36,838 nucleotides of DNA. It comes from Adlercreutzia sp. ZJ473. GTDB taxonomy: Bacteria > Actinomycetota > Coriobacteriia > Coriobacteriales > Eggerthellaceae. The notes below the pieces were generated by a model that ran no database searches, was not told the DNA's origin, and saw nothing but the letters and a program-made list of their open reading frames with translations. The stretch lies in NCBI RefSeq assembly GCF_013185065.1, contig NZ_JAAVTO010000026.1, forward strand, positions 1-36,838, written 5' to 3'. Both the position numbers and the translations under genes were made by a program. Positions 18,077-28,860 of this stretch are shown here, piece by piece; the stretch's first letter is position 1, and every line of letters starts with the position of its first letter.

Positions 18077-19321
18077 ATGGCTGAAGCCGTATCGCGTCAC
18101 ATAGCGTTCTCCCCACCTGACATCACCGAGGAGGACATCAGCGAAGTCGTCGAGGCGCTGCGCAGCGGCTGGATCACCACCGGCCCGCGCACCAAGCAGT
18201 TCGAGCGCGACCTCGTCGCGTTCACCGGCGCAGCAGGCGTGGCCACCTTCTCCTCGGCCACGGCGGCGCTCGAGTGCGCCCTGCACGCCTTGGGCATCGG
18301 CCCTGGTGACGAGGTTATCACGAGCGCCTACACCTACACGGCCTCGTGCTCGTGCATCTGCCACGTCGGTGCCACGCCTGTCCTCTGCGACACGGCGCCC
18401 GGCTCCTTCGAGATGGACTACGATCGGCTCCCGAGCCTCGTCACCGAGCGCACACGCGCGATCATCCCCGTTGACATCGCCGGCCGCATGGTCGACTACG
18501 ACCGGCTGACCGCAGCCCTCGAGAGCGCCTCGAGCCGCTGGAAGCCGGCGAACGCCGCTCAGGCGCGCTTCACGCGCCCTGTCATCATCGCGGACGGCGC
18601 GCACTCGCTCGGCGCCACCTACCACGGCCGCGCGTCGGGCTCCGTCGCCGACTTCACCGCGTTCTCGTTCCACGCCGTGAAGAACCTCACCACCGCGGAG
18701 GGCGGCGCGCTCGCCTGGCGCGAGGGCGCGGCCGACTCCGACGAGTTCTACCATGAGCTCATGCTGCTCTCCCTGCACGGCCAGAGCAAGGACGCGCTGG
18801 CGAAGGACCGCGCGGGCGCCTGGGAGTACGACATCGCGTTCCCCGGCTACAAGTGCAACATGACCGACCTGCAGGCAGCGCTCGGGCTCACGCAGCTCAG
18901 GCGCTATCCCGCGCTCATGGCGCGGCGCCACGAGATCATCAGGCAGTACGAGGACGGACTCGCCGCGCTCGACGTGGAGACCCTCGCGCACGCAGGCGAC
19001 GTGTCGGGTGGCAGCTTCCAGTCAAGCGGACACCTCATGCTCACGCGCCTTAAGGGCAAGGGTCTCGGCTTCCGCAACCAGCTCATCGAGCGCATGGCCG
19101 CCGCCGGCGTGGCGGCGAACGTGCACTACAAGCCGCTGCCGCTGCTCACGGCCTACAGGAACATGGGATTCGACATCGCCGACTTCCCCTGCGCCCTCGC
19201 CCAGTATGAGAACGAGGTGACCTTGCCGCTGCACACGCTGCTCGCCGACGATGACGTGGCCTTCGTGCTCGACACGTTCAAGCGCGCTTACGCGGGCTTG
19301 GAAGCCGAAGGCGTCCGCTAG
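18077..19321 (+). CDS. PLP-dependent sugar aminotransferase, DegT/DnrJ/EryC1/StrS family (413 aa)
   Basis: Moves an amino group, usually from glutamate, to a 4-keto (or 3-keto) nucleotide sugar. The pyridoxal phosphate Lys is K202 in SFHAVKN, with Asp173 and His176 in IIADGAHSLGA contacting the cofactor. GWITTGPRTKQFE near the N terminus is typical of the PglE/ArnB branch. ATG 18077 has AAGGA five bases upstream. The initiating sugar-phosphate transferase begins on the base after its stop codon. With the PglF-like dehydratase at 27025 this suggests a 4-amino-4,6-dideoxy sugar; the exact product is inferred. Confidence 0.92.
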   Translation: MAEAVSRHIAFSPPDITEEDISEVVEALRSGWITTGPRTKQFERDLVAFTGAAGVATFSSATAALECALHALGIGPGDEVITSAYTYTASCSCICHVGATPVLCDTAPGSFEMDYDRLPSLVTERTRAIIPVDIAGRMVDYDRLTAALESASSRWKPANAAQARFTRPVIIADGAHSLGATYHGRASGSVADFTAFSFHAVKNLTTAEGGALAWREGAADSDEFYHELMLLSLHGQSKDALAKDRAGAWEYDIAFPGYKCNMTDLQAALGLTQLRRYPALMARRHEIIRQYEDGLAALDVETLAHAGDVSGGSFQSSGHLMLTRLKGKGLGFRNQLIERMAAAGVAANVHYKPLPLLTAYRNMGFDIADFPCALAQYENEVTLPLHTLLADDDVAFVLDTFKRAYAGLEAEGVR

Positions 19322-19921
19322 ATGTACCAGCGCTTTGGAAAACGCCTGTGCGACATCGTGGTCAGCGTGGTCGCGCTGCCCTTCGTGCTGCTCATCATCG
19401 CCGTGCTCGCGCCGCTCATCCACTTCGAGGACGGCGGCCCCGTGTTCTACAACGCGCCGCGCGTGGGCAAGGACGGACGCGACTTCACGATGTACAAGCT
19501 GCGCTCCATGCGCGTGAACGCGCCCGACCTGCTCATGCCCGACGGGTCGACGTACAACGGCGAGGACGACCCGCGCATGACGCGCGTGGGCGCCTTCATG
19601 CGCAAGACGAGCCTCGACGAGATGCCGCAGTTCCTCAACGTGCTGAAGGGCGACATGAGCGTAGTGGGCCCCCGCCCTGACCTGCGCCGCGAGACCGAGC
19701 TCTACCAGGGCGAGGAGCACCGCAAGCTCACCGTGAAGCCCGGCGTCACCGGCTATGCCGCCGTCTACGGCCGCAACTCGCTCCCCTGGCACAGCCGCCT
19801 CGCCCTCGACATCTACTACGTCGATCACCTGAGCTTCCCCCTCGACGTCAAGGTGTTCTTCAAGACGTTCTCCACCGTGCTGGGCCAGGAGGGCGTTTAC
19901 GTGGAGGAAGGCGGCGAATAA
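19322..19921 (+). CDS. initiating sugar-phosphate transferase (PglC-like, monotopic)
   Basis: Transfers a sugar-1-phosphate from a nucleotide sugar to undecaprenyl phosphate, the first membrane step of glycan assembly. At 199 residues it is the short form lacking the extra N-terminal membrane domain of WbaP/WcaJ. The N-terminal hydrophobic stretch (12-34) contains Pro20 of the re-entrant helix. The catalytic Asp99-Glu100 lies in SLDEMPQFLNVLKGDMSVVG, followed by GPRPD and KPGVTGYAAV. It abuts the aminotransferase stop, so the pair is probably co-translated and the transferred sugar may be the amino sugar made by that enzyme. Confidence 0.95.
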   Translation: MYQRFGKRLCDIVVSVVALPFVLLIIAVLAPLIHFEDGGPVFYNAPRVGKDGRDFTMYKLRSMRVNAPDLLMPDGSTYNGEDDPRMTRVGAFMRKTSLDEMPQFLNVLKGDMSVVGPRPDLRRETELYQGEEHRKLTVKPGVTGYAAVYGRNSLPWHSRLALDIYYVDHLSFPLDVKVFFKTFSTVLGQEGVYVEEGGE

Positions 19922-27025: not shown

Positions 27026-28860
27026 TACCCGCGCGTGAACCGGTACGTCGGCACAGCGCTTTCCAGCACGCGGATGGCTTCCTCGTCCGTGGACGCGATG
27101 ACGGCCCTCAGCTCCTCGAGCTTGGCAGCCACCTCGTCGTAGCTGATCTCCTGGCCGACCGATACCATGATGGACGAGCTGCCCGTGGGAAGCGTGTCCT
27201 CCTCGTCCATCAGCAGCTCCTCGTACATCTTCTCGCCGTCGCGCAGGCCCGTGAACTCGATCTCGATGTCCTCGCCGAGCTTCAGGCCCGACAGGCGGAT
27301 CAGGTTGCGCGCCAAGTCGAGGATCTTCACCGGCTCGCCCATGTCGAGGATGAAGATCTCGCCGCCGCGCGCCATGCCGCCCGCCTGGATGACCAGGCGC
27401 GTCGCCTCGGGGATGGTCATGAAGTACCGCTCGATGTCAGGGTGCGTCACCGTTACGGGGCCGCCCTGCGCGATCTGCCGCTTGAACAGGGGAATCACGC
27501 TGCCGTTCGAGCCGAGCACGTTGCCGAAGCGCACTGCCGTGAACACCGTCTTCGACGTGCGCGCATAGTACTGCATGATCATCTCGCCCATGCGCTTGGT
27601 GGCGCCCATGACGCTCGTGGGGTTCACCGCCTTGTCGGTCGAGATGAAGATGAAGCGCGCCACCCCGTGCGCGTCAGCCGCGCGCACCACGTTCAGCGTG
27701 CCGAACACGTTGTTGCTGATCGCCTCGCGCGGGCACGCCTCCATGAGCGGCACGTGCTTGTGCGCTGCCGCGTGGAACACCGCCGACGGCGCGTAGCGGG
27801 CGAACACCTCCTCGACGCGCGCCTCGTCGCACACGCTGCCGATCTCGACCTCCACGTCGAGCTCGGGGTGCTCGGCGAGCAGCTCGTTGCGCAGCATGTA
27901 CGCGTCGTTCTCGTAAATGTCGAACACCACGATGCGCGCAGGGCCGACCTTCGCCAGCTGGCGGCAGAGCTCGCTTCCGATGGAGCCGCCGCCGCCCGTC
28001 ACCAGCATCGTGTTGCCCGTGACGTACGTTGCCGCCGTGCGCGTGTCGAGCACGATCTCGTCACGCCCGAGGAGGTCCGTCACGTCGACGTCGCGAAACG
28101 CCACCACGCCCAGGTCCTCGACGTCGATGTCGCGGATGTTGGGGAGCGTGCGCAGCGTGCACTCGGTGGACGTGCAGATGGAGTAGATCTTCTTGCGCTC
28201 GGCAGCCGTGGCGGAGGGGATGGCCACCACGATCTGGCTCACGTCATACCGCCTTACCAGCTCGGGGATGTCGTCGGTCGACCCGACGACCTTGACGCCG
28301 TGGATGCGCTTGTTCTTCTTCAGCGGGTCGTCGTCGGTGGCGGCCACCGGCACGCCCGGCATGTTCGGATCCTTCGAGAGCATGCGGCCGATGGTCAGCG
28401 CGCCCGTCTCGCCCGCGCCCACGATGAGCGTGCGCGGGCTCTCCCCTGACGCGGGCCGCAGCTGGCGCTTCTTGCTCTTGACGATGCGCCACAGCATGCG
28501 CACGCCGCCGACGAAGAGCACCAGCAAGATGCCCGAGCTCACGAACACCCTGATGGGAAGACGCACGTCCGCGAGCCACAGGAACACCGCGCCCAAGAGC
28601 GTGGACACGAACATCGACAGCACGATCTGGAGGAGCTCGTCGATGCCGGCGTACTCCCAGAGGTTGTTGTACAGGCGAAAGCCCGCTAAGACGCCCACGT
28701 TGATCAGCGCGAGGATGCCCAGGATGAAGAATATCTCCGTGTTGACGAACACCTCGCCGTACACGTTCGTCAGAAGGGATGCGAGCCAATAGGCGACATA
28801 AGTGGAAGCCACGTCAGCAAAGAGAAGAACGCCCATCCTTCCCGCCGTGCGAATGTCCAT
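27025..28860 (-). CDS. membrane NDP-sugar 4,6-dehydratase, PglF/CapD/FlaA1 type
   Basis: Probably converts UDP-GlcNAc to a 4-keto-6-deoxy sugar, the substrate of aminotransferases such as that at 18077. The 611-residue protein has four membrane helices in the first 130 residues, a CoA-binding-like Rossmann fold with VGAGETG, then the catalytic domain: TGGGGSIGSEL (NAD), HAAAHKHVPLMEA, and STDKAVNPTSVMGATKR containing the Ser/Met/Lys arrangement used by this family instead of YxxxK. ATG 28860 has GAGGAG four bases upstream. GC is high here, like the 16571-19921 genes and unlike its downstream neighbour. Confidence 0.94.
   Translation of the reverse strand: MDIRTAGRMGVLLFADVASTYVAYWLASLLTNVYGEVFVNTEIFFILGILALINVGVLAGFRLYNNLWEYAGIDELLQIVLSMFVSTLLGAVFLWLADVRLPIRVFVSSGILLVLFVGGVRMLWRIVKSKKRQLRPASGESPRTLIVGAGETGALTIGRMLSKDPNMPGVPVAATDDDPLKKNKRIHGVKVVGSTDDIPELVRRYDVSQIVVAIPSATAAERKKIYSICTSTECTLRTLPNIRDIDVEDLGVVAFRDVDVTDLLGRDEIVLDTRTAATYVTGNTMLVTGGGGSIGSELCRQLAKVGPARIVVFDIYENDAYMLRNELLAEHPELDVEVEIGSVCDEARVEEVFARYAPSAVFHAAAHKHVPLMEACPREAISNNVFGTLNVVRAADAHGVARFIFISTDKAVNPTSVMGATKRMGEMIMQYYARTSKTVFTAVRFGNVLGSNGSVIPLFKRQIAQGGPVTVTHPDIERYFMTIPEATRLVIQAGGMARGGEIFILDMGEPVKILDLARNLIRLSGLKLGEDIEIEFTGLRDGEKMYEELLMDEEDTLPTGSSSIMVSVGQEISYDEVAAKLEELRAVIASTDEEAIRVLESAVPTYRFTRG

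Follow-up and report, generated by a model that had tools for sequence, protein, structure and literature searches.

The 36,838-nucleotide stretch of Adlercreutzia sp. ZJ473 DNA analyzed here, referred to as the window, encodes a UDP-sugar dehydratase, an aminotransferase, and an initiating sugar transferase. This raises the question of whether the bacterium starts a surface polymer with an amino sugar that retains its free amine, and what kind of polymer that would be. A sequence-only reading had proposed such a start and had expected a zwitterionic polysaccharide, by comparison with polysaccharide A (PSA) of Bacteroides. We consider it probable that the set primes with free-amine 2-acetamido-4-amino-2,4,6-trideoxygalactose (AATGal), a wall glycopolymer of the pneumococcal teichoic acid type being a likelier product than a Bacteroides-type capsule. 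The proposal of a free-amine initiating sugar was supported. We infer the AATGal primer with good support, from the descent of the aminotransferase, its catalytic residues and insertions, and the co-inheritance of the set, and because 18 of the 19 genomes sharing the set have no PglD-type match.

In the proposed pathway, the dehydratase would convert UDP-GlcNAc to UDP-4-keto-6-deoxy-GlcNAc, and the aminotransferase would place an amine, probably from glutamate, on C4 to give UDP-AATGal. The transferase encoded by the abutting gene would then pass AATGal-phosphate to undecaprenyl phosphate. With no acetyltransferase acting between these steps, the first sugar would retain its free amine, and a conserved GT1 glycosyltransferase would add the second sugar. 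The substrate, the stereochemistry at C4, the transferase specificity, the GT1 step, and the type of polymer are as we infer them. In Escherichia coli, pglF, wcfR, and wcfS together yield undecaprenyl diphosphate-linked AATGal (PMC13063421).

Identity of the three priming enzymes

The window corresponds to contig C36 in a draft genome of 2.63 Mb and 119 contigs (G000), and its Pfam scans covered 30 open reading frames (ORFs), consisting of 26 probable genes and four antisense ORFs. The three genes named in the sequence-only reading are real, and their positions were correct. The pyridoxal phosphate-dependent aminotransferase occupies ORF 18017 to 19321 on the forward strand (Pfam DegT, 298.7 bits). 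Its start is probably the ATG at 18077, since this is preceded by AAGGA and the alignments of most close relatives begin only at about residues 13 to 28. The best PDB match was Spr1654 (6ewj) at 489 bits, followed among distinct sequences by an ArnB-like enzyme at 209 bits; PseC (2fn6) scored 135, the C3 enzymes WbpE and QdtB 99 and 82, and PglE (4ztc) 62 bits. Identity was 55.5% to Spr1654 over 393 columns and 23% to PglE. The proposed product of Spr1654 is UDP-AATGal, which supplies the first sugar of the pneumococcal teichoic acid repeats (PMC5936713).

All 14 active-site positions taken from the Spr1654 study (PMC5936713) are identical in the window aminotransferase. They include Lys199, Asp170, His196, Glu205, Lys257, Gln234, Asn342, and Tyr345 of Spr1654, which correspond to Lys222, Asp193, His219, Glu228, Lys279, Gln256, Asn368, and Tyr371 of the window ORF. 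That study describes insertions 150-164 and 212-217 as unique to Spr1654. In an alignment of 97 clade members, 11 other relatives from the class, six PDB chains, and two further aminotransferases of the same genome, the window enzyme had both. The first segment was 31 residues long versus 16 in the comparison rows, and the second was 20 (21 in Spr1654) versus 15. Neither insertion occurred in the 11 other class relatives or in the rows of ArnB, the ArnB-like enzyme, PglE, and the aminotransferase of contig C52.

In a tree of 52 rows, the window aminotransferase, Spr1654, and enzymes of Bacteroidales formed a clade of 38 rows with support of 100/100. This tree excludes L036 and L059 (ORFs longer than 520 amino acids), L051, L079, the C22 aminotransferase, and many named loci, and it replaced an earlier 74-row quick tree that contained two badly cut rows (L051 and L079) and long branches. 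The Bacteroidales enzymes are presumed to be of the WcfR type, WcfR itself being outside the tree. The comparison with PSA is therefore fair for the enzymes, as Bacteroidales homologues share the clade, with the qualification that the closest characterized relative is the pneumococcal Spr1654. Of the two placements considered, with WcfR or with PglE, the second fails and the first holds to the extent that the enzyme belongs to the Spr1654/Bacteroidales clade. PglE paired with the C52 aminotransferase; both are on long branches, and the program cautions that such branches may be joined falsely. The 11 relatives form a clade that is probably PseC-like, because a CapD-like gene adjoins several of its members.

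Other identities for the aminotransferase were rejected. The "PglE-like" label did not survive, given the score of 62 bits, the different branch, and the location of the PglE-like gene of this genome on C52. The NCBIfam PseC model gave 291.5 bits against a cutoff of 423.5, and the Spr1654-type insertions are absent from the PseC-like relatives. A C3-keto type was rejected from the WbpE and QdtB scores against that of Spr1654, and a dTDP-linked substrate because a separate DesI-like aminotransferase adjoins a dTDP-glucose dehydratase on contig C22. That contig holds a third aminotransferase-transferase pair (L030, positions 7935 to 11691), comprising the dTDP-glucose dehydratase, a dTMP-kinase-like gene, the DesI-like aminotransferase, and a sugar transferase. 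Adlercreutzia sp. ZJ176 carries a second Spr1654-type aminotransferase (L085; 56% identical), preceded by a dehydratase gene of its own. In the 52-row tree this enzyme falls among those of Bacillota, which suggests transfer between phyla.

The transferase gene (19322 to 19921, forward strand) begins with an ATG directly after the aminotransferase stop at 19321, so the two genes abut as had been stated. It encodes a small phosphoglycosyl transferase of 199 amino acids (Bac_transf, 209 bits), proposed to be a UDP-AATGal:undecaprenyl phosphate transferase, which scored 138 bits to WbaP and 124 to the PglC-type 8g1n. The membrane-type UDP-GlcNAc 4,6-dehydratase of the CapD/PglF type lies on the reverse strand at 27025 to 28872, about 8 kb from the pair, with an in-frame ATG at 28860 preceded by GAGGAG. 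It matched Pfam Polysacc_synt_2 (395 bits) and CoA_binding_3 and scored 293 bits to WlaL, which we take to be PglF. The names "PglC-like" and "PglF-like" hold at the level of the fold family. For these gene identifications, the E-values exclude chance matches.

PglD and a second amino-sugar set

The window yielded neither a hexapeptide protein nor a PglD, and its only match to the NeuD/PglD model (20 bits) lay inside the dehydratase. The sequence-only reading was right in this. A genome search found one PglD-like gene on contig C52 (67889 to 68506; 172.5 bits, cutoff 160.8), which bears on a refuting condition that the reading had set for itself, a PglD-like gene elsewhere that acts on the product. 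This gene is accompanied by a complete set of its own: a dehydratase 49% identical to that of the window, a PglE-like aminotransferase (249 bits to 1o61), and a PglC-like transferase. Because C52 holds all of these, the genome appears to operate two UDP-sugar routes in parallel, of which only one includes PglD. In the C52 set (L028 and L029), the PglD gene also adjoins two KAS III-like genes and a FabG-like gene, and its acyl group might for this reason not be acetyl.

None of nine further hexapeptide proteins with weak NeuD matches (a set that excludes the weak matches on C101, C78, and C21) exceeded the NeuD cutoff. GlmU scored above its own cutoff, one protein had no match at 1e-15, and the remainder, all below cutoff, resembled carbonic anhydrase, maltose or WbbJ O-acetyltransferases, and phn or Vat types. 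Among the 19 genomes of the family that carry the aminotransferase (see below), two had a NeuD/PglD match at E ≤ 1e-20. One of the two is DapD, so that 18 of the 19 have no PglD-type match, in a search that covered the NeuD/PglD family and not GNAT proteins or formyltransferases. This is the strongest evidence against any PglD step in the set.

Co-inheritance and neighboring genes

We compared 197 genomes of the class, of which 33 belong to the family of the window, the Eggerthellaceae. A close aminotransferase (at least 61% identity) was present in 19 of the 33 family genomes and in no genome outside the family. All 19 carry the transferase within 300 bases downstream (70 to 100% identical) and the dehydratase (at least 63% identity). 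The dehydratase was found in 0 of the 14 genomes without the aminotransferase, one of which had a partial 50% match resembling the C52 paralogue. The Fisher test of this association gave P = 1.2e-9, with relatedness unaccounted for, and the within-genus contrasts G072/G162 and G134/G112 agree with it. The transferase family is generic, as 5 of the 14 genomes without the aminotransferase carry a member (37 to 45% identical).

Neighborhoods were compared for 16 of the 19 genomes, excluding G000, G009, and G154; the gene calls were rough, and in a few loci an antisense ORF shadowed the transferase or the aminotransferase. The GT1 glycosyltransferase gene (16448 to 17929, forward strand; Pfam Glyco_trans_1_4) lies directly 5' of the aminotransferase in the window, and a 65 to 72% identical homologue is directly upstream in 12 of the 16. 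These neighborhoods lack conserved counterparts of the window's rhamnose and exporter genes, except for weak ABC-ATPase matches (24 to 28%); one LCP match (38%) was found, in L163. Outside the family, pairing of the aminotransferase with the transferase is common and not universal. Among the best 80 of 90 aminotransferase relatives in named genomes, a transferase is directly downstream in 17 of 22 Bacteroidota, 19 of 54 Bacillota, and 3 of 4 Actinomycetota loci; many Ruminococcus relatives have no transferase nearby. The flanks of four of these 80 loci contain a weak PglD-like match (40 to 70 bits).

The closest named relative at the locus is Adlercreutzia sp. ZJ176, with 94% identity in the aminotransferase and 97% in the dehydratase. 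Two GT2 glycosyltransferase genes follow the pair on the forward strand, one starting one base past the transferase gene (19923 to 20996) and one at 21058 to 22158, with an 89% identical homologue 3' of the transferase in ZJ176. Candidate export genes lie on the reverse strand and encode a Wzt-like ABC ATPase (13059 to 14402) and a Wzm-like permease (14344 to 15168). The ATPase ends in two C-terminal ChW repeats, which are found elsewhere in the window on probable wall enzymes, and its ZJ176 homologue aligns over 260 of 447 residues only. The dTDP-rhamnose genes rmlC, rmlB, rmlD, and rmlA (9642 to 13062) and two LCP ligases joining glycopolymer to peptidoglycan (22322 to 24818) are also on the reverse strand, and a third LCP ligase (35072 to 36277) is on the forward strand. 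The exporter, rhamnose, and GT2 genes were named from Pfam and the LCP genes from Pfam and NCBIfam. The window also encodes an Acyl_transf_3 protein and an MBOAT/AlgX pair.

Nature of the polymer

Genes of the phosphocholine (lic) type were found near the aminotransferase in many relatives. One protein combines helix-turn-helix (HTH), LicC-like, and LicA-like domains (LicCA; for example, L150, 12507 to 14345, reverse strand, and L174, 16938 to 18770, forward strand), with a match in 21 of the 33 family genomes. In 8 of the 16 neighborhoods this fusion is no more than 10 kb from the aminotransferase, and in 11 of the 19 genomes no more than 25 kb; it was found in none of the best 80 of 90 named loci within the stretch examined. 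In G072 and G030, the dehydratase, the aminotransferase, LicCA, and several LicD genes occur in one stretch of about 28 to 31 kb, together with TarI in G072 (298 bits, cutoff 166) and a TagD-type glycerol-3-phosphate cytidylyltransferase in G030 (203 bits, cutoff 165). The names need caution, as the G072 LicCA matched only GntI in NCBIfam, below cutoff, and the LicB-like protein and one LicD of G072 had no NCBIfam match at 1e-20. In the G030 stretch, a nucleotidyltransferase fused to an aminotransferase also adjoins an octopine-dehydrogenase-like gene (L181, 12869 to 15800, reverse strand), an arrangement that recalls phosphonate activation enzymes.

LicCA occurred in 16 of the 19 genomes with the aminotransferase versus 5 of the 14 without (P = 0.006) and LicD in 17 of 19 versus 7 of 14 (P = 0.017), relatedness being unaccounted for in both tests. 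Choline-binding repeats (PF19127; 10 of 19 versus 5 of 14) and TagF (9 of 19 versus 9 of 14) showed no clear association. The genome of the window has LicCA on C57 and C116 and three LicD genes on C57 and C64, with none in the window itself; the C57 LicCA scored 125 bits to phosphocholine cytidylyltransferase 1jyk and 81 to choline kinase 4r77. This genome has no PF19127 match and no TagF, and the wall proteins of the window bear ChW repeats rather than PF19127. Given the lic genes close to the aminotransferase in relatives and on other contigs here, a pneumococcal-type glycopolymer in the Eggerthellaceae is the simplest interpretation, which would extend to the window's own genome by analogy only. 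In the Spr1654 pathway (PDB 6ewj, 6ewq, and 6ewr; PMC5936713), AATGal is likewise the proposed first sugar of a cell wall polymer. The window differs from it in its actinobacterial host and in the setting of the genes beside rml, Wzm/Wzt, and LCP genes.

Known systems that start from related sugars suggest two other products. Acetylation of the aminotransferase product by the C52 PglD, giving N,N'-diacetylbacillosamine or another N-acylated sugar, is very improbable. A PglD-like protein above the curated cutoff does exist and could in principle act in trans, but this is unlikely because C52 has a full set of its own and because of the branch of the window aminotransferase and the 18 genomes without a PglD-type match. 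The window set resembles the Campylobacter PglF-PglE-PglD-PglC system in reaction order and in the fold families of the dehydratase and transferase; the aminotransferase branch and the absence of PglD from the window set it apart. A PSA-like repeat polymer in which AATGal starts every repeat alongside an anionic group is also unlikely, if slightly less so. As in WcfR/WcfS of Bacteroides fragilis PSA (PMC13063421 and PMC10167101), the aminotransferase gene precedes the transferase gene and the dehydratase gene lies outside the pair, and the Bacteroidales loci mostly share this order. Moreover, wcfR has been called the AATGal synthase of zwitterionic polymers and used as such to screen over 8000 genomes, and AATGal bears the positive charge in polymers with immune activity, PSA among them (PMC10167101). 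However, the Pfam scans of the 30 window ORFs recognized no Wzx, Wzy, pyruvyltransferase, or other anion-adding gene, and the exporter is Wzm/Wzt-like. Polymers exported by Wzm/Wzt usually carry the primer once per chain, and the free amine may occur once only, in the primer. A zwitterionic polymer is not supported by the gene content of the window, and this part of the sequence-only reading was not borne out.

The remaining alternatives concern the wall polymer itself. One tentative possibility is a pneumococcal-type teichoic acid that bears phosphocholine, begins with AATGal, and owes its charge to phosphocholine and polyol phosphate. This possibility is favored by the proximity of LicCA, the joint stretches of G072 and G030, and the LicCA and LicD genes of this genome. 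It is weakened by the location of those genes on other contigs, by the lack of PF19127 repeats and TagF, by the 3 of 19 genomes that have the aminotransferase and no LicCA and the 5 of 14 with the reverse, and by the poor NCBIfam matches in G072. Somewhat less plausible is a role for AATGal as linkage sugar only, in a rhamnose-type wall polymer that Wzm/Wzt would export and LCP ligases would attach to peptidoglycan; rmlABCD, Wzm/Wzt, and three LCP genes share the window with the set, but the set is conserved in relatives without such neighbors. For free-amine AATGal priming of a teichoic acid-type polymer, several points weigh on the other side. The use of a 4-keto sugar by Spr1654 "remains to be determined" according to its authors (PMC5936713). 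The specificity of the transferase is unreadable from its sequence, because it matches WbaP slightly better than PglC, and a transferase is directly downstream in only 39 of the best 80 of 90 named loci. The set adjoins rhamnose and ABC export genes rather than lic genes, and the reach of the PglD search and a C52 protein active in trans, both noted above, belong here as well.

The lic genes of Actinomycetota are not new, since a phosphorylcholine survey reported Lic-1 enzymes in Actinomyces; the Eggerthellaceae are unnamed in the available part of its text (PMC10434233). In Eggerthella lenta, the tarI/tarJ and tarD/tagF regions vary by strain, and choline is unmentioned in the part of that text available (PMC10234575). 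Polymers with AATGal or phosphocholine in the Eggerthellaceae appeared in no title or abstract opening among the matches listed, nor in the available parts of these two papers. A combined scheme, in which the family builds phosphocholine teichoic acid on a free-amine AATGal primer and AATGal may link peptidoglycan to a wall polymer containing rhamnose in the Adlercreutzia lineage, is doubtful as a whole; its second half comes from the priming genes adjoining the Wzm/Wzt, rhamnose, and LCP locus. That gut bacteria of the Eggerthella type inherit the priming set as a unit, and frequently carry it next to phosphocholine genes, predicts a polymer that would face the host, and the analysis provides a short list of genes with which this prediction may be tested.

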